From Solirubrobacterales bacterium (GTDB taxonomy: Bacteria; Actinomycetota; Thermoleophilia; Solirubrobacterales; Solirubrobacteraceae): a DNA stretch of 64,000 nucleotides. The stretch lies in NCBI GenBank assembly GCA_027315255.1, contig DAHUYL010000130.1:1-64000 (forward strand). Reading direction: 5' to 3'. The position numbers were made by a program, and so were the translations under genes. Every line of letters begins with the position of its first letter. Position 1 is the stretch's first letter. Under the pieces are notes generated by a model. That model had not been told where the DNA came from. It saw only the letters and a list, made by a program, of their open reading frames with translations, and made no database searches. This document shows positions 41,167 to 54,195 of this stretch, piece by piece.

Positions 41167-44100
41167 TCACGCGCCCGCAACCGCCTCGACTTCCAGCCAG
41201 GCCCGCGCATCGTCGGCGATCGCCGTCGGTGCGTGACTTGCGGTCTGCCTCAGCCCTAGTTCCAGTTCGCGTCGCGCTCGCACGAGTACCCGTCCGCCGG
41301 TGTGCCGGCGGCCAGCCACGTCGTTGATCGCGACAGCTGCGATCGCGGTCGCGGCGGTTGTGAGCCGGGCGGTCAGCACCGTGGCCTGCGCACGGTCGAT
41401 GCCCGCCGGCCTGCGGCGGCCCACGAGGTTGCTCGCTGCCTGGGCAAGCTGTTCGAAGGCTCTTGCTCCGGTCCGTCTTGACAGATGGTCATCGTCGACC
41501 CAGGCGGTCCGGGACAGCGCCGCGCTCAGCCGTGCCGCGAGCTCGACCAGGTGACCGCGCGAGTGCCTGCGCGCTCTGCCCAGCGCGACGGCGACCGCGT
41601 TGCGCACCGCTTGCACCAGCAAGCGGGCATTGGCTGGGGTGATGGTGATCCGGAACCTGCCTGTCGCCGTCCGACGCGGCTTCGAGCCGTCGGTCACCTT
41701 CGCCGTGAACGTGTAGCTACCCGCCATCGCCGGCGTTCCAACGAGCTGTCCTGCCTGGCCAAGCAGCAGGCCGGCGGGCAGCGCCCGGCCAGCCAGATGC
41801 CAGCGGTAGGCGCTGCGGCCGCCGAATGCGAACGGCGCGAGCGATCCGCGGTAGGCCGAACCCTGCTGCCCGTCGGGCAGCTCGCCGTTCCGCACGGCAA
41901 GCGCCCCGACGGACTCGTAGGTGAACCGGTCGCCGGCGTCCGGCGAGCTCGAGCGCCCGGCAACGGTTGCCGTCACGCGAACGGTGCCGGGCGGGCCGGC
42001 CGGGACGATCATCGTGCAGAGGACGGAGGTCGGGCAGGTGACGTTGCCGGCCGGTTGCCGGCCGAAGGTGAACGAGTTCGTCTGCGCTCCGGTCGCGAAC
42101 CCCGAACCGTTCACCTCGACGACCTCGCCCCCGGTGGTGAGCCCGTGATCGCCCTCGACGGCCGTGATCGCCGGCCGTGAGCCCGGCGCCGCGCCGACGG
42201 TCAGTGCGAACATCCGCTGCGCCGACTGCGTGCTCGAGCCCGGAGCCGCTGCCCCGCTCCGCGCGGGCGTCGAGTCGATCACCTCGATCGTGAACGTCCA
42301 GACGCCAGGCTGTTGTGGCACGCCACTGACAGCTCCGGTGGCCTCATCCAGCGACAGTCCGGGCGGTAGCATGCCGCCGACCAGGTGCCACGTGTACGGC
42401 GGCGTGCCACCGGATGCTCCCGGTGAGCCGGCATACCCGGATCCGACCGTCGCGTCGGGCAGTCCGTCCTGGGCGAACCCGAGCAGCCCGGCACCGGACG
42501 GCGCGACGGCCCGAGCGAGCGCCGCGGTCCGCCCGAAGGCCTCCGGCCCAGGCGTGGAGGCCTGGCTCGGCGGCAGTCCCCTCGCATGCAGCGGTCCGGC
42601 GCGACGGATCGCCGAGTTGACGGGAGCATAGGACGTCGGGCCGACCGTGCACTGGCCGGGCCAGGGGAAGTTCGACTGCTTCTGGGTCGGGACTACGATC
42701 GCGGCGACCGTGTCGCCGTAGCTGTCGCGAGTCTGGTTGAGCCAGGGCTCGAGATTGTTGTCATAGCCGGTCTGGCCGGCGTCGTTGCGCAGGTTGCAGG
42801 GATCGGCGATCTGGGCGGTCCCGAACTGGTTGGCGCTGTTCTCGACGTTGGACACGTACCAGCCGTTGCTGTCGTATGTGATCCGCTCGTCGAGCTCGTG
42901 CGATGCGCTCAGGGTGATCAGGGGATCTCCGGGCGCCATGCCGCACAGCTCGACCCAGGCCGCCTGATAGCTGCCGATCGTGTTGTTGCTGCCTCCCCCG
43001 CCGCACGCCGCGCCCGACGGGGCATAGGCGAGCAGGTAGACCGTGCTGTCATTCGACGGGTCACCGAAGCTGCGGGACATCGCGTCGAGGTCGTTCGAGG
43101 TGACCGTCCCCGACTCGTTGGGCAGCATCCCCACGCCATACGGCGACCCGGATGCGCTCAGCAGCGAGAACTCGCCGACGTAGTCGTAGCTGCAGCCGAT
43201 GCCGCTGAACAGCAGGCAGCCGGTCCACTCGCCGAACGATCCGATCTCCTGGGCATACGGCGAGGACGGGCCGTAATCCGTGTAGATCAGAGCTTGCAGA
43301 TCTGACAGGTAGTCGAACGCCTGCTCCCGTGCGGCCTGGTCGCCGGTCGTGCGCGCGCACTGCCCTGGTAGCGCGCACCACCAGCCACCAACCAGCACGA
43401 TCGCGATCTTGGGATTGACGATCACCGACCCGCCGCCGTAGCTGAGCTGCCACGACGTACTTGCCGGCACGAGTGGTGAGAGGTAGTTGAAGCAGGGGGC
43501 CGTGGTGGGGGACCCCAGGCAGTTGGTCCTCGCCTCCGATGTCCCTCCGGGACCCGTTACGGTGACGTTCACCGCGCCGCTGCCCGCAGGTGCGACTGCG
43601 GTGATCTGGTGGTCGGAGCCGACGGTGAACGAGGATGCCGGCGAAGAGCCGAAGTCCACCGCCGTCGCACCTGTGAAACCGCTTCCCGTCAGCGTGACGG
43701 TGATCGCGCCGGTCGCCGGGCCGCCAATCGGGTTGACCCCGCTGACCGACGGTGGCGGCGCGAGACTCCCCTGCGTCCGGAACGTCTGCGTCGAGCCGGA
43801 ACTGCTCCCAGCGATGTCGCTGACGACGAGGCGGTACTCGTAGGTCTGCCCGGCCTGCAGACCCGAGAGCGCCGCGCTCACCGCGAGCGACCCGCCGTCG
43901 GCCGGCGGCGGGGAGCACGGCGCGCTCGCCGTGAACCCGCCGGTTCCATACTGGAACTCACAGCCGGTGATCGGCGTGCCGTAGCCGGCGGCCACGGTGC
44001 CGGTCAGGGTCGCGCCGGTCAGGCCGGCGTTCTGGACGGCGCCCGTGGTCGCGCTCGGGACCGAGAACGGGCAGCCGTCGCCTGAGAAGACCGTCGGAGG

Positions 44101-45450
44101 CGGCGCCGGGCCGCCCGTCGGTCCCTGGCCGATCATCGTCACGATCGCGTTTCCGTTGCAGGAGCCGACATCGGCCGCGACGACGTCCTCGGCGGCGTGA
44201 TAGATCCCGAGCTGGCTCGCGAAATCGTTGGTCAGCACCGGCCCGGTGACGCCATCGAGCTCGAACGGCGACCCCGTGACCGGCGTCAGCTGCCCGGCGC
44301 CGGTCGCCTGCTCGACCGACACCCAGTCGGCTGCGTAGAGGATGCAGCCGCAGCCACCCTGCCAGTAGTCGCCGGCGACGATTCCGACCCCGCCCGGGGT
44401 GGGCTTGCCCTGCACCTCGCCCGGCGCGAAGTACTCGGTCGCAAGGGACTGGATCTGCGTGTTGTCCGGCGCGATCTGAACCGGGCTGCCGGCCGCCAGC
44501 GAGTAGCCGCCGGTGCCGTTGCCGAGCAGGATCGACGCCTTGCCGTCGCCGAATCCGACGGCCAGGTCGTCGCCGTCGCCATCGCCGGCGTTGAAGTCGC
44601 CGGAGGTCATCGACTGCAGGTCGGTGAACGTGAAGCCGCCCCCGCAGCCGTTGGTCTCGCCGGTCGCGAACGGCGATCCGGTCGCCTCGCCGAAGCCGCC
44701 GTGCCCGTTGCCCAGGAGCACGTCGAGAACGTCGTTGGTCCCGTCGGCGACCGCGAGGTCGACGTGGTTGTTGGTGAGCGGGGCGAGCTGCGAGGCGACG
44801 ATGGCGCTCGGTCCGGCGGTGCAGCCACCGAGGGCTGGGAGTGAGATCGGCGACCCGGGTGCCTGCGTGAACGTCGGAGAGCCGGCCGGCGCGGACCCGT
44901 TGTCAAGGAACACCTGGACCTGCCCGCATGACTCCGCGACTGCGATGTCCGCGCTGCCGTCGCCGTTGAAGTCACCGGTCGCGATCGCATCCGGGGTGCA
45001 GTTCAGCGACAGCGTCGCCGGTGCGGGGGTGAAGCTGCCGTTCCCCGACCCGACCAGGATCGTGATCGTGGCGGCGAGCGCGTTGGCGACCACGAGGTCC
45101 GGGTTGGTGTCACTGCCGAACTGCGATGCGGCGATCGCATCGACGCCCGTCGAGAGCTGGATCGGCGAGCCGGGAGCCGGCGTGAAGTGGCCCAGGCCGT
45201 CGCCCAGCAGCACCGTGACCGTGCCGGACTCGTAATTGGTCAGCGCCACGTCGGCGTTCCCGTCGCTGTTGAAGTCGGCGGTCGTCATCGCCGTCGGGTA
45301 GAACAACGAGCTCGACGGCGAGATCGAGCTCGACGGGCCTGCGCTCAGCGGCGGACCCGCGGCGAGCGCCGGGGCAGGCGCCGCGAGCGCCAACAGCAGA
45401 CAGGCGATCAGCTCGGTCGAGAGCCGGACGGTTCGCGCGCGCGAGGTCAC
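41167..45450 (-). CDS. Giant secreted FG-GAP / IPT-TIG / Ig-like mosaic protein with a HELxE domain
   Basis: About 1,427 residues from GTG 45450, which overlaps the TGA of the upstream remnant. Signal peptide (about 1-30, 'LIACLLLALAAPAPALAAG'); FG-GAP/VCBS-type repeats ('TADFNSDGNADVALTNYESG', 'TGDFNGDGSADIAVAES') forming a propeller (about 35-400); an Fn3-like and an IPT/TIG domain (to about 660); a domain of about 290 residues with 'ITLSASHELDERITYDSNGW' and 'IADPCN', reminiscent of exordium/PHI-1 or metalloprotease-like 'SHELAEAxTDP' proteins; then putative-Ig and TIG domains and a helical C-terminus. Likely surface or matrix protein; catalytic activity is unproven. Confidence 0.85.
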   Translation of the reverse strand: MTSRARTVRLSTELIACLLLALAAPAPALAAGPPLSAGPSSSISPSSSLFYPTAMTTADFNSDGNADVALTNYESGTVTVLLGDGLGHFTPAPGSPIQLSTGVDAIAASQFGSDTNPDLVVANALAATITILVGSGNGSFTPAPATLSLNCTPDAIATGDFNGDGSADIAVAESCGQVQVFLDNGSAPAGSPTFTQAPGSPISLPALGGCTAGPSAIVASQLAPLTNNHVDLAVADGTNDVLDVLLGNGHGGFGEATGSPFATGETNGCGGGFTFTDLQSMTSGDFNAGDGDGDDLAVGFGDGKASILLGNGTGGYSLAAGSPVQIAPDNTQIQSLATEYFAPGEVQGKPTPGGVGIVAGDYWQGGCGCILYAADWVSVEQATGAGQLTPVTGSPFELDGVTGPVLTNDFASQLGIYHAAEDVVAADVGSCNGNAIVTMIGQGPTGGPAPPPTVFSGDGCPFSVPSATTGAVQNAGLTGATLTGTVAAGYGTPITGCEFQYGTGGFTASAPCSPPPADGGSLAVSAALSGLQAGQTYEYRLVVSDIAGSSSGSTQTFRTQGSLAPPPSVSGVNPIGGPATGAITVTLTGSGFTGATAVDFGSSPASSFTVGSDHQITAVAPAGSGAVNVTVTGPGGTSEARTNCLGSPTTAPCFNYLSPLVPASTSWQLSYGGGSVIVNPKIAIVLVGGWWCALPGQCARTTGDQAAREQAFDYLSDLQALIYTDYGPSSPYAQEIGSFGEWTGCLLFSGIGCSYDYVGEFSLLSASGSPYGVGMLPNESGTVTSNDLDAMSRSFGDPSNDSTVYLLAYAPSGAACGGGGSNNTIGSYQAAWVELCGMAPGDPLITLSASHELDERITYDSNGWYVSNVENSANQFGTAQIADPCNLRNDAGQTGYDNNLEPWLNQTRDSYGDTVAAIVVPTQKQSNFPWPGQCTVGPTSYAPVNSAIRRAGPLHARGLPPSQASTPGPEAFGRTAALARAVAPSGAGLLGFAQDGLPDATVGSGYAGSPGASGGTPPYTWHLVGGMLPPGLSLDEATGAVSGVPQQPGVWTFTIEVIDSTPARSGAAAPGSSTQSAQRMFALTVGAAPGSRPAITAVEGDHGLTTGGEVVEVNGSGFATGAQTNSFTFGRQPAGNVTCPTSVLCTMIVPAGPPGTVRVTATVAGRSSSPDAGDRFTYESVGALAVRNGELPDGQQGSAYRGSLAPFAFGGRSAYRWHLAGRALPAGLLLGQAGQLVGTPAMAGSYTFTAKVTDGSKPRRTATGRFRITITPANARLLVQAVRNAVAVALGRARRHSRGHLVELAARLSAALSRTAWVDDDHLSRRTGARAFEQLAQAASNLVGRRRPAGIDRAQATVLTARLTTAATAIAAVAINDVAGRRHTGGRVLVRARRELELGLRQTASHAPTAIADDARAWLEVEAVAGA

Positions 45451-46027
45451 CGGAGGACGAATCCGCGCGAGACCGGAGTCGGCTCCGTGCCGCCGGGTCC
45501 GATCGAGCGGACGTAGAAGGCGTAGCTGCCGGGCTTCAGGTGGGAGTAGGTTACGGTGCTTGGACCCGCGGTGCCCCTTGGGGTGCTCGGGGCCGGTGTG
45601 ACGCTTACTCGGCCCGTGCGCCGGGGTGGTGTTCTGAAGTGCGCACTGGAAGCTCGTGACCTCGCCCGTGGCCGCGAACCTGATCCTGACGCCGTGATCG
45701 CGTGCGAGCAGCTTGGCTGATTCGAGCAGGGCTCCGGGCACCGGCGGCGGCAGAGGCGCGGTCGTCGTCGTGGTCGTGGTCGCCAGCTTCGGCAGCGAGC
45801 CGGTGAGCATCACATCGGTGTCGTTGCTCGAGTCGACGTAGCTGCCGACGGACACGCACGCGCCGGGAGCGGTGCAGCCGAGCCCGTCGAGTCTGGTGTC
45901 CTCACTGCCCGTGGTGGTCGTGGCGTTGGCGGGGGGCGTGATCTCGCCGGACGGCCGCCAGCCGCCGCCCGACTCGCCGGCCGCCATCGCGAGCTGGTCG
46001 TTCTGGCTGTCGGAGTGGTAGCCGACG
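45447..46027 (-). pseudogene. 5'-truncated, frameshifted paralogue of the seven-repeat secreted protein
   Basis: The frame encodes 'GSEDTRLDGLGCTAPGACVS' and 'SLPKLATTTTTTTAPLPPP', clearly related to the end of the repeat domain of the intact gene at 51574 ('GSEDVQLDGLACTAPGACVA'). After 'FQCALQNTTP' the correct continuation is in another frame: 'RRTGRVSVTPAPSTPRGTAG' to 'GGTEPTPVSRGFVLR' and a TGA that overlaps the GTG of the next gene. The start and the first repeats are missing. One indel near 45620 restores a full C-terminal domain. Confidence 0.85.
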
Positions 46028-46223
46028 GGCTGATCGTCGCTCGTCACCGTCTCGTCACTGTCGGCATGCCCTGTCTCGATCTCCTCAGGCCGGCACTCCC
46101 AGCTCGATCCGCGATCCGCTCGACCGAAACGGCACCGACGCACCAGCGTCACCCGTCGCGCCTCACCAGCGGCGGTAGCATCGTGCCACCCAGCGCGGGA
46201 CCTCCGCAAGAGCGCTGGCCAAG

Positions 46224-46241
46224 CCCGTACAAGTCCGGACA
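46224..46241 (+). repeat. Left arm of an 18-bp inverted repeat flanking vapBC and the WD40 gene
   Basis: CCCGTACAAGTCCGGACA occurs here on the plus strand and, perfectly, as its reverse complement at 50968-50985. The two copies bracket the second vapBC pair and the nSTAND1-WD40 gene. It also lies upstream (in reading direction) of the truncated secreted-protein gene on the minus strand. No other feature is visible in 46028-46223. Confidence 0.65.
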
Positions 46242-46293
46242 GAACCGCTCCTCCGACGTCCAGCGGCCGTGGGGGCGTCGGGCCGGAGCTGCT

Positions 46294-46315
46294 GTAAGAC
46301 TGGTACGGTCCTTAC
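46294..46315 (+). promoter_or_regulatory. Promoter/operator of the second vapBC pair
   Basis: GTAAG (46294-46298), GTAC (46303-46306) and CTTAC (46311-46315) form a symmetric interrupted palindrome directly before the ATG. TACGGT (46304-46309) fits a -10 box six bases from the start codon, so the transcript is probably leaderless and the palindrome an autoregulatory site for the AbrB-fold antitoxin. Confidence 0.5.
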
Positions 46316-46546
46316 ATGCGCGTAACGTCCAAGGGTCAGATCACGATTCCGCGGGAGCTTCGCGACCGCTTCGACCTTGGACCGGGCGCCGAGGTGGAGG
46401 TCGTCGCAGCCGAAGGCGGCGCGCTCGTGCGACCCACCCGAGCGGTCGAAGCCGGCCGGCGACTGGTCGAGCAGCTCCGCGACCGCGCGGACGGCGGCCT
46501 CAGTGCCGAGGAGGTCCTTCGGCTGACACGTGGCGAAGCGGATTGA
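46316..46546 (+). CDS. vapB: AbrB/SpoVT-fold antitoxin
   Basis: A 76-residue antitoxin with the swapped-hairpin AbrB signature 'MRVTSKGQITIPRELRDRF' followed by 'LGPGAEVEVVAAEGGALVRP' and an acidic-basic tail ending in 'EEVLRLTRGEAD'. The TGA overlaps the TTG start of the toxin. It should dimerise, bind its own promoter and neutralise the adjacent PIN toxin. Confidence 0.93.
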   Translation: MRVTSKGQITIPRELRDRFDLGPGAEVEVVAAEGGALVRPTRAVEAGRRLVEQLRDRADGGLSAEEVLRLTRGEAD

Positions 46547-46956
46547 CCACGCTGATCGATACGAGCGTCCTGCTCGACATCGTGGCGCCGTCTGAATGGC
46601 GCCCCTGGTCGGAGCAGCAGTTGATCGAAGCAGCCGCGCGCGGGCCGCTGGCGATCAACCAGATCATCTCGGCAGAGCTGTCGGCAGGCTTCGCTTCGCA
46701 GGAGGCATTCGAGCGTGCGCTGCAGGGCGTCGGTCTGCTGCGTCTGAACCTTCCCTGGGCTTCTGCATGGCTCGCCTCACGCGCGTTCCTCGCCTACCGT
46801 CGCGGACGCGGCACGCGGACGGCACCACTGCCGGACTTCTTCATCGGCGCGCACGCCGAGGCAGCCGGGCTGCCGCTGCTGACACGCGACCCGGCTCGGA
46901 TCAGGACCTACTTCCCCGCCGTCGACGTGATTGCTCCGCCCGGCGTGCCGGACTGA
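46543..46956 (+). CDS. vapC: PIN-domain toxin, VapC family
   Basis: A 137-residue RNase toxin starting at TTG 46543, which overlaps the antitoxin stop (TTGA). PIN acidic residues: Asp in 'LIDTSVLLDI', Glu in 'IISAELSAGF', Asp in 'PLPDFFIGAHAEAAG' and Asp in 'LLTRDPARIRTYFP'. It forms a complete type II toxin-antitoxin pair with the AbrB-like protein and sits about 110 bases before the WD40 gene. Confidence 0.93.
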   Translation: MTTLIDTSVLLDIVAPSEWRPWSEQQLIEAAARGPLAINQIISAELSAGFASQEAFERALQGVGLLRLNLPWASAWLASRAFLAYRRGRGTRTAPLPDFFIGAHAEAAGLPLLTRDPARIRTYFPAVDVIAPPGVPD

Positions 46957-47065: not shown

Positions 47066-50000
47066 ATGCGCTCAGAGCGACCATCGCCTGGGGTTCCCGA
47101 CAGCATCGAGACTCGCGCTGACCTGGCCCAGGAGTTGACGGCTCTTCGAGTCCGGTCGGGTTTGACGATCCGCGCGCTCGCCCAGCGGGTTGGCGTTCCG
47201 TCCGCCACCGTCGGCGGCTATTTCAGCGGCCGGCACCTCCCCGGTCCTGCGCAGCACGAGCTGTTCTGTTCGCTGTTGCGCGAGTGCGACGTGGCCGAGG
47301 CGATGATCGGCGGCTGGGTCGAGGCGCTCGCGCGGGTGCGTGTCAGCTCCGACGGACGCGTCGGTCGGATCCCGTCGCCGTATCGCGGTCTCGAGCCGTT
47401 CGAGGTGGCGGACGCGGAACTGTTCTTCGGCCGTGAGGGGGTCAGCGACGAGGTTCTCGCTCGATTGCGGCAGCTGACCCGGCCGGCGGTCAGCCCCGGG
47501 CAGCCTGGTCTGCTGCTGGTGCTCGGACCCTCCGGATCGGGGAAGTCGTCGCTGCTGCGGGCCGGGGTGGCGGCGAGCGTCGAGGCCGGTGCGCTCGACG
47601 ACGAGCGCAGGAGGTGGTCAGCTGCGGTGATCACCCCGGGCGAGGCACCGGCGGAGGTGCTGCGTGCGTGCCAGTCGCAGCTGGATGGAGACCCCCGGGT
47701 GATCGTCGTCGATCAGCTGGAGGAGGCGTTCGCGGCTGAGCGTGGCGAGCGGCGGCGGTTCTTCGAGGGACTGGCCGGGCTGCACGCTCCCCAGAGCCTC
47801 GTCGTCGCCGGCCTGCGGACGGACTTCTTCGAGGCGGCGCTGGGCGAGCCTCTGCTCGTATCGGCGTTCCGCCGAGGTGCGCACGTGCTCCTGGGTCCGA
47901 TGACGACCGAGGAACTGCGCCGTGCGATCGTCGAGCCCGCGCGACTGGTGGGCGTCCACGTCGAGGACGGGCTGGTCGACATGCTGCTTGCCGATCTCGC
48001 TCCCGGCAACCCGACCGGCTTCGCGCATGAGCCGGGTGCGCTGCCGCTGCTCTCGTTTGCGCTGCTCGCGACGTGGGAGCGCGCGCAGCGCAACCAGCTC
48101 GCGATCGCCGATTACCGTGAGGCAGGGGGGCTGCGTGGTGCGGTCAGCCTGCGCGCTGAGGAGCTCTACACGCAGCTCAGCCCGCACGAGCAGGAACTCG
48201 CCCGCCGCATCTTCTACAGGCTGGTCCGGGTTCAGGACGACGCTCCCTTGACCCGTCGGAGGGTCGCCCGGGACGAGCTCGACCAGCTCGCCTCCGCCTA
48301 CGAACCGGACCATTCCGCCAACGGGTCCGGGGGCGTGCTCGACCGGTTCGTCGCCGCTCGTCTGGTGACCGTCGACGCAGGGACGGTCGAACTGAGCCAC
48401 GAGGCGCTGCTGACCGCCTGGCCGCGTCTCGCAGACTGGCTGGAGCGCGACCGCCAGAGCTTGCGCCTGCACCAGCAGATCACCGATGCGGCAAATGCCT
48501 GGGTCGAGTCCGGTCGGGACCCGTCGCTGCTGCTCCGCGGCAACCGGCTCCAGGCAAGCTCCGAGTGGGCCGCCGACGGCGTTCACGCCGCTGGCTTGAA
48601 CGCGGTCGAGCGCGAGTTCCTGGACTCGAGCCGAGCGCTGGCGGAGCGCGAGCGCCAGGCTGCTCGCAGGCGCACCCGCCGCATGCAGCAGCTGCTGGGG
48701 CTGGTCGCCGTGCTCGCGATTGCGGCGTCGATCCTCGCGGTCGTTGCCTTCAACGCGCAGCAGAACGCAGCCGAGGCTCGCGACCATGCCCTCTCTCGCC
48801 AGGTCGCGATCGAGGCCGGCGAGCTCGAGCCGACGGATCCCGCACTCGCGATGCAGCTGGCGCTCGCGGCGTACCGGATCTCCCCGACCAGGCTGGCAAC
48901 CTCGTCGCTGCTCGACACCTCCGCATCCGAGATGCCCACACGGCTGCTCGGACCCACCGGGCCGACGTCGGCAGCGCTCAGCGCTGACGGACCGGAGCTC
49001 GCGGTCGCGCACTCCGCGACCAATCAGGTCTCGCTCTACGGGCTGTCGGGCGCTCGGCCGGCGCTACTGGGGACAGCGTCGACGGGCCCGGCGTCGAGTC
49101 AGCTGTTCACGGTCGCGCTGAGCCCGAACGGCCGCCTGCTGGCCGCGGGTGGCACCGGCAAGCAGGTCGTCGTGTGGAGCGTGGCGGCGCCGCGAGATCC
49201 GACGAGGCTCGCGATGCTGAGCGGCTTCACCGGAACCGTCAACGGAGTCACGTTCAGCCCCGACGGCCGGCTGCTGGCCGCGGCCGGGAGCGACGGCACG
49301 GTCCGCGAGTGGCCGGTCGGAACGCCGTTCGATCCGGCCGGGCAGGTCGTGCTGACTGCGCCTGGGCGCTCGGGTCTGCAAGCGCTGGCCTACAGCCCCG
49401 ACGGCGACACGCTGGCGGCAGTCAGCAGCGGGGGGAGCCTTTTCATCTGGCGGCTCGGCGGCGGCCTTCGCCCGGTGATCACACGCTCCGTGGCAGCGAG
49501 CACGCTCACGTCGGTCGCCTACAGCCCGAACGGGCGCACGCTGGCCGTCGGCGCTCAGGACGGGAACGTGTACCTGTTCCGGATCGGCGCCGGTGGTGCG
49601 CTCCAGACCGAGCATCCGCCGCTCGGGGGCTTCACGAGCTGGGTGGACTCGCTCGCGTTCAGCCCTGACGGCCGCTACCTGGCCGCCGGTGACTCGGACA
49701 GCACGCTGCGGATCTGGTCCGCCACCAGCTGGTCGCACGTCGCGACGCTCGTGCACACCGCTCCGGTGACCGGGATCATGTTCACGCCCGACGGGCAGAG
49801 GCTCGTCACGGTCGACGAGGACGGCACGACTCGAATCTGGTCGTTCCCACCACCCGCTGCGGTCCGCGAGCCGGGCAGCGTCTACACGATCGACTACACC
49901 GCCAGTGGCAATGAGCTGGCCGCTGTCAGTGGCGGTCCGCAGGGCAACGTCGATCTCTGGAACGTGTCTGACCCCTGGAGCCCGCTGCACGTCGCCGCGG

Positions 50001-50908
50001 TGGACATGCCTCGCGCGTTCGGTCCCGCCGCCGGAGTCGAGGCGTTCAGCCCCGACGGCAAGCTCCTGGCGGTCGGGAACGTCGCCGCCAAGGTACGCCT
50101 CGTCGACTTGGCCGATCCGCAGCACCCGCGGCTGGTCGGTGGCGTGATCTCCGGCGCCACCCCGCTGATCGAGCAGCTCGGCTTCTCACCCGACATGAAG
50201 CTGATGTCGGTCGGTGATGACGCGGGCAAGATCCTGCTCTGGAACATCGCCGATCCCGCCCACCCGATCGCGCTCCCGACGCTGAACGCCGACGGCCGCT
50301 CGAGCCAGGTGTTCGGCGTCGCCTACAGCGCCAACGGCAAGCTGCTCGCCGCTGCCTGCGCGGACCAGCGGGTCGGCCTGTGGGACATCGCCACCCCGAG
50401 CCACCCCAAGCTGCTGGCGGTGCTCGGCGGCTTCGCCAGCTACGTCTACACCGTCGCCTTCACCCCCAACAGCCGTACCCTGATCGCCGGCAGCGCCGAT
50501 GACACGCTCCGGCTGTGGGACATCAGCGACCCGGCGCACCCGCGCCTGCTCGGACACCCGCTCACCGGTCCGACCAGCACCGTCTACGACGTCGCCACCA
50601 GCCCCGACGGAAGCACGCTCGCCGCCGGCACCACAGGTCAGGACGTATGGCTGTGGAACATCAGGAATCCTGCGCACCCGGTCGAGATCGCCGACCTCAA
50701 GGCAGCTTCCGGCCAGGTCTTCGACGTCACCTTCAGCCCGAACGACAGCACCCTGGTCGCCAGTGGCGGCGACCAGACCCTTCACTACTGGGACTACCGC
50801 CCGGCGCAGGTCGCCGCCCGGATCTGCACGCTCGCCGGCACGCCGATCACCCGCTCGGAGTGGACGCAGTACATCCAGGGCGCTCCGTACCACCCGCCCT
50901 GCCGCTGA
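47066..50908 (+). CDS. HTH-nSTAND1-TM-WD40 signalling ATPase
   Basis: A 1,280-residue protein. Order: Xre-like helix-turn-helix (about 20-75, 'LTIRALAQRVGVPSATVGGY'); nSTAND1 NTPase opening with 'YRGLEPFEVADAELFFGRE', Walker A 'GPSGSGKSS' (154-162) and Walker B 'VIVVDQLEEAF'; a membrane helix near 540-562; and 14 WD40-type repeats (about 630-1240; for example 'VTFSPDGRLLAAAGSDGTV'), enough for two seven-bladed propellers. The tail ending 'SEWTQYIQGAPYHPPCR' is characteristic of actinobacterial members. STAND proteins oligomerise on ligand sensing. No effector domain other than the HTH is visible. It may be defence or signalling related. Confidence 0.93.
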   Translation: MRSERPSPGVPDSIETRADLAQELTALRVRSGLTIRALAQRVGVPSATVGGYFSGRHLPGPAQHELFCSLLRECDVAEAMIGGWVEALARVRVSSDGRVGRIPSPYRGLEPFEVADAELFFGREGVSDEVLARLRQLTRPAVSPGQPGLLLVLGPSGSGKSSLLRAGVAASVEAGALDDERRRWSAAVITPGEAPAEVLRACQSQLDGDPRVIVVDQLEEAFAAERGERRRFFEGLAGLHAPQSLVVAGLRTDFFEAALGEPLLVSAFRRGAHVLLGPMTTEELRRAIVEPARLVGVHVEDGLVDMLLADLAPGNPTGFAHEPGALPLLSFALLATWERAQRNQLAIADYREAGGLRGAVSLRAEELYTQLSPHEQELARRIFYRLVRVQDDAPLTRRRVARDELDQLASAYEPDHSANGSGGVLDRFVAARLVTVDAGTVELSHEALLTAWPRLADWLERDRQSLRLHQQITDAANAWVESGRDPSLLLRGNRLQASSEWAADGVHAAGLNAVEREFLDSSRALAERERQAARRRTRRMQQLLGLVAVLAIAASILAVVAFNAQQNAAEARDHALSRQVAIEAGELEPTDPALAMQLALAAYRISPTRLATSSLLDTSASEMPTRLLGPTGPTSAALSADGPELAVAHSATNQVSLYGLSGARPALLGTASTGPASSQLFTVALSPNGRLLAAGGTGKQVVVWSVAAPRDPTRLAMLSGFTGTVNGVTFSPDGRLLAAAGSDGTVREWPVGTPFDPAGQVVLTAPGRSGLQALAYSPDGDTLAAVSSGGSLFIWRLGGGLRPVITRSVAASTLTSVAYSPNGRTLAVGAQDGNVYLFRIGAGGALQTEHPPLGGFTSWVDSLAFSPDGRYLAAGDSDSTLRIWSATSWSHVATLVHTAPVTGIMFTPDGQRLVTVDEDGTTRIWSFPPPAAVREPGSVYTIDYTASGNELAAVSGGPQGNVDLWNVSDPWSPLHVAAVDMPRAFGPAAGVEAFSPDGKLLAVGNVAAKVRLVDLADPQHPRLVGGVISGATPLIEQLGFSPDMKLMSVGDDAGKILLWNIADPAHPIALPTLNADGRSSQVFGVAYSANGKLLAAACADQRVGLWDIATPSHPKLLAVLGGFASYVYTVAFTPNSRTLIAGSADDTLRLWDISDPAHPRLLGHPLTGPTSTVYDVATSPDGSTLAAGTTGQDVWLWNIRNPAHPVEIADLKAASGQVFDVTFSPNDSTLVASGGDQTLHYWDYRPAQVAARICTLAGTPITRSEWTQYIQGAPYHPPCR

Positions 50909-50967: not shown

Positions 50968-50985
50968 TGTCCGGACTTGTACGGG
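50968..50985 (-). repeat. Right arm of the 18-bp inverted repeat
   Basis: TGTCCGGACTTGTACGGG on the plus strand is the exact reverse complement of 46224-46241. It lies 60 bases upstream of the secreted-protein gene at 51045. Because the left copy is also upstream of a paralogue of that transcription unit, it may be a conserved promoter element rather than a recombination site. Confidence 0.65.
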
Positions 50986-51044: not shown

Positions 51045-51587
51045 ATGTCGCGAGCACGTGCATTACCACGCGCCGTCTCGGCATCGGCCGCTGCGGTATC
51101 GACGCTCCTGCTGATCGCCGCCGGTGCGGCCGGCGCAGCCGGCTCGGGCGCCCGCCGGCGGTTTTTTTCCGGCAGTGGCACGGAGTACTTCAACAATGGG
51201 CCGAGGTGGATGCTCGCGCCTGAGCGGTCGCGGATCACGTTCGACGAGCTGTCGGGCCCGAGCAGGTTGCTGAGCTTCCTGGCGACCTACTCGTACTACT
51301 GCGGCTCCTCGACGTCGTCGCTCACGTGGAAGTCGATTCCGGTGATGCCGAGTGGACGCTTTCACGTGCGAGCCCGTTTCGTGGCCCGCCTCTCAACTGG
51401 CCGGGTGACGGGGTACGACTACGTCACGATCTGGGGCCGTGTCAGCGGCTCTGGGAAGGCGGCGGCGGTGTCCGTCCTGGTCGATTTCGTGTACGCCGGC
51501 AAGCACGTCGCCGATCCATACGGGACCAGGCTGCAGTCCGCGACGGCCGCGTGCGAGACGCTCGTGAAGGGCAGTGCGGGTGCGTGA
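51045..51587 (+). CDS. Small secreted protein of unknown function
   Basis: A 180-residue exported protein: signal peptide (about 1-35, 'AAAVSTLLLIAAGAAGAAG'), then a beta-rich domain with aromatic residues ('TYSYYCGSSTSSLTWKSIPV', 'FHVRARFVARLSTGRVTGY') and two cysteines, one near the end ('ATAACETLVKG'). It overlaps the next gene by 14 bases, forming an operon with the seven-repeat protein. Family not recognised. Confidence 0.8.
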   Translation: MSRARALPRAVSASAAAVSTLLLIAAGAAGAAGSGARRRFFSGSGTEYFNNGPRWMLAPERSRITFDELSGPSRLLSFLATYSYYCGSSTSSLTWKSIPVMPSGRFHVRARFVARLSTGRVTGYDYVTIWGRVSGSGKAAAVSVLVDFVYAGKHVADPYGTRLQSATAACETLVKGSAGA

Positions 51588-54195
51588 GCGAGCGGGCAGG
51601 CTCGCGGCGCTGTGCGCGGTCGTGGTCGCCGCCTGTTGCCTGCTCGCGCAAGCGGCGTCCGCGAGCGCTCCGGTGTGGGCGACCCCGGCTGAGTTCACCC
51701 AGCTGCCCGCGGGCGCGAACACCACGCCCGGGACGGCGGGCGCAGCCTTCCGAGCGGTGAGCTGCACGAGCTCGGGCAACTGCGCCGCGGTCGGGTTGTA
51801 CGTCGTTACGAGCTCGGTCAACGAGCTGATGGTCGCGACCGAGACGAACGGCTCGTGGGGCCCTGCCACCGAGCTCGCGGTGCCGGCGGGCCGGAGCGCG
51901 TACTCGGTCGGCAACCTCTCGTGCCCGAGCACGGGCAACTGCGCGGCCGTAGGAACCCTCCAGAGCGCGGCCGACGGCGGTATCCAGAAGACGCCATTCG
52001 TCCTCGACGAGGTGAACGGAAGCTGGCAGCCGGTCGACGGCAGCATCACGCTGCCCTCCGACGCCGGGCCGAGTCCGCTCGCCGGCCTCGACTCCGTCAG
52101 CTGTACGAGCGCCGGCAACTGCGTGGCCGTCGGCTACTACACCAACCAGTACTTCTGGGCGAACGCGATGTACCTGACCGAGAGCGGCGGCACCTGGGCG
52201 AGCGCGGCGAGCAGCATGACGCTGCCCGCCGACGCTGTGGAGGGATGCGCCAACTGCGGGGGTACCGGTATCGGCGCGGTGCTGAACGCCGTGTCGTGTC
52301 CGAGCGCGGGGAACTGCGTGGCAACCGGACACTACGTCTCGAGCGCCGGCGGCCAGCGGGCGATGATCGCGACCGAGGTGGGGATCTTCGGCTGGGTCGT
52401 CAACGCCTACACGGCAACGCCCGGAAACGCCGGCACTGCGGGCGCCAGCGGGCCAAGCCATCTTGGAGCCGGGTTCGACAGCGGGCTCGACTGCACCGGC
52501 GTCGGCAATTGCGTGGCCGCCGGCATCTACCTCGACTCCGCCGGCGACGCCGAGATGATGGTCGCGACGGAGACGAACGGCAGCTGGCAGCAGGCGATCG
52601 GGATCCCGCTGCCGGCAGCCGTCACAGGCAGCTCCGTCTACCCGGACGGCACCGCTTACGTGACCGCGCTGAGCTGTTCGGCTCCGGGTGAGTGCGCGGC
52701 TACGGGCTACTACACCGACAACAGCTCCGACACGCTCGCGATGACGGTCGACGAAACGGGTGGTGTCTGGGGATTGACCTCCGAGGTGATGCCCCCCGGC
52801 AACGCGACCTCGACGTCCGGCAGCGAGGACGTCCAGCTCGACGGGCTGGCGTGTACGGCTCCTGGCGCGTGCGTGGCCGGGGGCAGCTACGTCGACTCGG
52901 GCGCGAACACCGATGCGATGCTGATCTCCTCGCTGCCGCAGCTGACCGTGACGACCTCGAGCCTTCCGCGCGCGAGTGGCGGATCCGGCTACAGCGCGCA
53001 GCTGGGGGCGAGCGGCGGCAGCGGCGCCTACGCGTGGTCGGTGAGCTCGGGGTCGCTTCCGGCGGGACTGGCGCTGAATGCTGCGACCGGGCTGATCTCA
53101 GGCACCCCGACCGGGTCGGGCTCGAGCTTCACGGTCACCGTCAGCGACCCGGGGCCGCCCGCGCAGTCGGCAAGCCAGTCGTTGTCGATCTCGGTCGCCG
53201 CGCCCCCGCCACCGGCCCCGGTCGTGGCACCGCCGGTGCCGCCGGCACCGGTCGCGACGCCGATCACCACGCCGCTTCAGGCAAGCACCGCCAGCATCGG
53301 CCGCGCGCTCGTCGAGAAGCTATCGGCGAGCGTTCCGATCAGCTGCTCGGCGGGCGGTGGCTGCGCGGTCAGCATCAGGCTGCTGGTGCGCGAGACGCTC
53401 GAGCACGGCAAGCTCCTCGCCGTCACAGCACGCGCCCGGAAGAACAGGAAGAAGCGGCGGCCCGTGATCGTGCACCGGACCGTGACGGTCGGGAACGTCT
53501 CGACACAGCTCGCCGGAGGTACCCAGGCGAGCGTTGTGGTCACGTTGGACGCGGCCGGCAGGCGGCTGCTGCGCAGCCGGCACCGCCTCACGGCAAGGCT
53601 GGTCGTCTCGCTCAGCGGGCGGCCGCTGGAGAGTGCGACGGTCGTGTTCAAGCCAGCCGGCAGCAAACGGCATCGAACGACCAAGAACAAGAAGAAGAAG
53701 AGGAAGTCGACGAGGCGAGCGATCGGCCAGTCGAACCAGATCACGTCGCGGGCCGCTGGCGGTCAGGCGCCTGCCTGGCAGATCGCGGCGTGGGAGCGGA
53801 TCGACTCGGCGTTCGCGCCGGCGTTCGGCAAGTTCGCGGATGCCCTGAGCTCCGCGCGCGCGACCGTGATCTGGGCCGGCCGCCGGGCGCTGCCGGCCAC
53901 CACGAAACGCCTGGCGCAGGCAGCCCGCGCGGTGATCCCGGCGATCGGGCTGTTCGACGCGCGGCTCGCGCGCACGCACTTCACCGGCGACCTCGCGGGG
54001 AACATCGTCTCCCTACGTGCCACCAACGCGAAGCTGATCGCGATCCTGCACAACCTCGACGCGGGCACCTTCGAATCGCAGTTCCTCGTCCCGGGCAACA
54101 GCGCCGTCTGGCCGGTCTCGCTGGAGCAGAGCTACAACCAACTCGGCGCCGCGCTCTCTAGAGACCTCGGACGCGTCAAGCTCCTCGTCCTCTGA
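51574..54195 (+). CDS. Secreted protein with seven Cys-paired 'SCxSxGNC' repeats, Ig-like domain and basic C-terminus
   Basis: An 873-residue protein from GTG 51574. After the signal peptide (about 1-33) come seven repeats of about 60 residues, each with two Cys five residues apart: 'VSCTSSGNCAAVGLY', 'LSCPSTGNCAAVGTL', 'VSCTSAGNCVAVGYY', 'VSCPSAGNCVATGHY', 'LDCTGVGNCVAAGIY', 'LSCSAPGECAATGYY', 'LACTAPGACVAGGSY'. Seven units suggest one beta-propeller with a disulfide per blade. A putative-Ig domain ('GGSGAYAWSVSSGSLPAGLALN'-type, about 465-545), a basic 'AAGRRLL' domain, a Lys-rich stretch near residue 705 and a helical C-terminus follow. Likely an exported binding or structural protein. Confidence 0.86.
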   Translation: MRVRERAGRLAALCAVVVAACCLLAQAASASAPVWATPAEFTQLPAGANTTPGTAGAAFRAVSCTSSGNCAAVGLYVVTSSVNELMVATETNGSWGPATELAVPAGRSAYSVGNLSCPSTGNCAAVGTLQSAADGGIQKTPFVLDEVNGSWQPVDGSITLPSDAGPSPLAGLDSVSCTSAGNCVAVGYYTNQYFWANAMYLTESGGTWASAASSMTLPADAVEGCANCGGTGIGAVLNAVSCPSAGNCVATGHYVSSAGGQRAMIATEVGIFGWVVNAYTATPGNAGTAGASGPSHLGAGFDSGLDCTGVGNCVAAGIYLDSAGDAEMMVATETNGSWQQAIGIPLPAAVTGSSVYPDGTAYVTALSCSAPGECAATGYYTDNSSDTLAMTVDETGGVWGLTSEVMPPGNATSTSGSEDVQLDGLACTAPGACVAGGSYVDSGANTDAMLISSLPQLTVTTSSLPRASGGSGYSAQLGASGGSGAYAWSVSSGSLPAGLALNAATGLISGTPTGSGSSFTVTVSDPGPPAQSASQSLSISVAAPPPPAPVVAPPVPPAPVATPITTPLQASTASIGRALVEKLSASVPISCSAGGGCAVSIRLLVRETLEHGKLLAVTARARKNRKKRRPVIVHRTVTVGNVSTQLAGGTQASVVVTLDAAGRRLLRSRHRLTARLVVSLSGRPLESATVVFKPAGSKRHRTTKNKKKKRKSTRRAIGQSNQITSRAAGGQAPAWQIAAWERIDSAFAPAFGKFADALSSARATVIWAGRRALPATTKRLAQAARAVIPAIGLFDARLARTHFTGDLAGNIVSLRATNAKLIAILHNLDAGTFESQFLVPGNSAVWPVSLEQSYNQLGAALSRDLGRVKLLVL

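Follow-up and report, generated by a model that had tools for sequence, protein, structure and literature searches.

A truncated and frameshifted remnant, probably a pseudogene of a secreted repeat protein, with a stop codon overlapping the start of the next gene

Translationally coupled gene pairs can be joined by stop/start overlaps of the ATGA or GTGA type. Bacterial pseudogenes that arise by truncation and frameshift have been reviewed (PMC11078800), and interrupted coding sequences (PMC2277376) and the detection of pseudogenes (PMC9336565) have also been treated. A segment on the minus strand of the window, the whole stretch of 64,000 nucleotides that was analysed, has something in common with both. 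Its stop codon, TGA at 45449-45447, overlaps the GTG at 45450-45448 of the gene for a 1,427-residue protein, and the overlap announced by the original prediction could be read directly in the sequence as GTGA. Unlike in coupled ATGA/GTGA pairs, the upstream member is broken here, and no present coupling would be expected in the original frame. Like such pseudogenes, the segment is a truncated and frameshifted copy with intact homologues elsewhere; it differs from them in no point of principle, its own features being that its stop overlaps the next start and that its broken frame continues into the next gene. Considering that the coding frame is disrupted relative to intact homologues, and that the start, the signal peptide and the N-terminal parts are gone, we regard this remnant as very probably an ordinary pseudogene of a secreted repeat protein, truncated at its 5' end and frameshifted.

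The remnant is composed of two pieces in different frames. In the first, 45637-46026 in frame A (codon starts at 46320-3k), two-thirds of a repeat are followed by a complete one, by a Thr/Pro linker and by the N-terminal half, as far as FQCAL, of a beta-rich (Fn3-like) domain; this piece carries FAATGEVTSFQCAL. The second, 45447-45635 in frame B, carries TVTYSHLKPGSYAFYVRSIGPGGTEPTPVSRGFVLR, the second half of the domain, and then the natural stop. In a search of the genome, the repeat half in frame A was 57% identical over 87 residues (E=1.3e-26) to the intact protein encoded at about 51.6 kb, whose last repeats were its best relatives, and a repeat profile built from 59 units matched the two units of the remnant at E about 2e-7 each. 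A domain profile built from eleven homologous domains of related genomes was searched against the window. It matched the C-half in frame B at model positions 41-80 (E=1.7e-11) and the N-half in frame A at model positions 5-29 (E=5.4e-4 over the whole frame and 0.0023 over the domain). These two colinear matches were the best in the window, and the next, an unrelated one, was at E=0.72. The C-half also aligned with a same-genus homologue (E 3e-9) from 45635 onward, colinear with the frame-A half. We then found that a codon-usage model trained on the long open frames of the window, in which no homology was used, favoured a switch from A to B by 29 bits over frame A throughout. The best break was at 45618, positions 45607-45624 were nearly as good, and the third-position G+C plot likewise moved from frame A to frame B around it. 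Coding in two frames, as had been predicted, is therefore supported by the homology of both halves and by an independent switch in codon usage. The frame change, located at 45639-45635 by homology and at about 45618 by codon usage (zone 45605-45639), falls within about 20 bases of the expected 45620.

These data point to a small indel inside the last domain that altered the frame. The codon signal is still strong in both frames, which points either to a recent change or, possibly, to a wrong base in the assembly. That the tail lies otherwise in one frame and was broken only by an assembly or sequencing error seems unlikely to us; the genome is a draft of 231 contigs, 92.2% complete, and the strong codon signal on both sides of the break would agree with such an error, but there is no long homopolymer at the break, and a single wrong base would leave the 5' truncation and a lost cysteine unexplained, so that the segment would still be a remnant. 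It had also been proposed that a programmed ribosomal frameshift or a phase-variable switch operates here, with frame A either running on as a fusion or shifting, ending at the GTGA and restarting. Frame A is indeed open right into the downstream gene, and the remnant's stop overlaps the GTG there. However, at 71% G+C a frame would by our estimate stay open for about 62 codons in roughly one case out of three, no signal peptide was seen in the translations upstream of the repeats, and the break has neither a slippery heptamer nor a homopolymer or tandem tract. The sole X XXY YYZ heptamer found was at 45936, inside frame A and well away from the break; at the same position lay six C, the only run in the coding part to exceed four, and the longest near the break was CCCC. 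With neither a slippery site nor a repeat tract at the break, and with every full homologue unshifted, we consider programmed shifting and phase variation very improbable. Least credible of all is a natural switch at the break, by which the upstream tail and the 1,427-residue secreted protein would be made either as a fusion or as separate, coupled products.

In the survey of the order's loci, all 18 distinct full-length homologous domains in other genomes, which are homologues rather than orthologues of the remnant, were coded in a single frame and had two cysteines. The original prediction would have been overturned by relatives sharing one frame throughout, the second frame then being a coincidence. 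The relatives' single frame covers both halves, and the second frame is therefore not coincidental and the copy is broken. The first cysteine of the remnant's domain lies in frame A, while the position of the second is occupied by Ala in frame B, and the second conserved cysteine has been lost. A close counterpart is a small C-terminal two-cysteine domain in putative secreted proteins of relatives (for example G026:C126 and G028:C63, with a weak Pfam match to Y_Y_Y). It is 45-48% identical to the second half of the remnant and stops at the same point, but it is unbroken and keeps both cysteines. Among curated Pfam models only Y_Y_Y matched the remnant's terminal domain, below the cut-off (20.5 of 26.6 bits); no solved relative was found by sequence in the Protein Data Bank, and the NCBIfam search gave nothing useful. 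The domain is present once in the genome, and thus the remnant is not a fragment of a living duplicate. In the same-genus homologue it follows a He_PIG domain that shares about 50% identity with the one in the 51.6-kb protein, which suggests that such proteins may exchange domains. At L052 (G096:C194, 17603-17770), the C-half of the domain recurs in part, nearly identical in sequence to an intact copy nearby; this is a duplicated C-terminal fragment.

The front of the gene is missing. The first of the two repeat units enters the repeat profile at model position 10 of 57 (46026). Repeat homology thus starts at about 46026-46027, in agreement with the 5' end first reported, and none was found upstream of 46026 with the repeat profile in six frames on both strands, including every frame of the stretch 46027-46315. 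About 290 bases upstream of the remnant, on the other strand, a MazE/AbrB-type antitoxin gene begins, so that the missing front would not fit there. The original prediction had described a gene remnant that one indel would repair. The remnant and its frame break are confirmed, but the repair is not, since the truncation falls within a repeat, the start and signal peptide are absent and a cysteine is lost; the remnant is both truncated and frameshifted, and a single change would not restore a secreted protein. The antitoxin gene is followed by a PIN-domain gene (46316-46956, plus strand), and the two are likely a VapBC-type toxin-antitoxin pair. Beside them, the 1,280-residue product of 47066-50908 (plus strand) combines an nSTAND1 NTPase domain with WD40 repeats.

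The intact gene downstream (41167-45450, minus strand) has a GTG start and encodes 1,427 residues with a signal peptide recognized by eye and FG-GAP, TIG and He_PIG domains. Because it has its own signal peptide and a GTG with no evident ribosome-binding site, past translational coupling of the remnant's ancestor to this gene is plausible. A search of 232 genomes of the order yielded no orthologue of the remnant that has this neighbour, and the ancestral state is therefore deduced from homologues. The only comparable genome, from the same genus (G013), has a partial homologue of the downstream gene (about 40% identity over the C-terminal two-thirds of the 1,427-residue protein, with a different N-terminal propeller) and no remnant-like neighbour. 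On the pseudogene reading, the ancestral gene probably encoded a signal peptide, several repeats, a Thr/Pro linker and the C-terminal Fn3-like domain, immediately preceded the gene for the 1,427-residue secreted protein and was probably coupled to it through the GTGA. Its front, as far as the middle of the second-last repeat, is gone, a small indel has shifted the frame within the last domain, the conserved cysteine is also missing, and presumably no product is made now. A further reading takes frame A at face value, the frame being open over 41167-46209 (minus strand), as a real fused protein of 1,680 residues. We give it very little credence, because the signal peptide would then fall inside the protein, codon usage and homology depart from frame A at the break, and the same-genus partial homologue has its own ATG start and no such extension. 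This open frame, in which frame A of the remnant runs on into the downstream gene, is spurious. Gene callers may output it as a false fusion, since frame A meets no stop before it enters the next gene, and annotation should be made with caution.

The original prediction had assigned the remnant to the class of the 51.6-kb protein (51574-54195, plus strand). This holds for the repeats, at the identity given above, but not for the C-terminal Fn3-like domain. In that protein, which is intact, a He_PIG domain and another C-terminus follow the repeats, and the domain profile found no match in 51574-54195; of the two, only the remnant has the terminal domain. Between the remnant and the paralogue's last repeat, differences numbered 25, 20 and 23 over the three codon positions, whereas about 38-45% of the differences in intact pairs were at position 3. 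This near-equal spread, from a small sample, is weakly suggestive of relaxed selection in the remnant. The locus is an example of the decay of fast-changing secreted repeat proteins in the genus. An 18-mer, TGTCCGGACTTGTACGGG, occurs at 46224-46241 (minus strand) and 50968-50985 (plus strand), exactly twice in the genome with up to 2 mismatches allowed, in both cases in the 5' flank of a repeat-protein gene and in the same orientation relative to it. It is possibly a shared regulatory site or a chance match. Exact 18-base pairs are expected about once per 64-kb window of this composition by our estimate, and near matches in the genus were close to the control level. The 180-residue product of 51045-51587 (plus strand) has an apparent signal peptide and matches no Pfam family; its gene runs 14 bases into the 51574 gene, across the GTG of the latter, and these two genes are likely a coupled pair.
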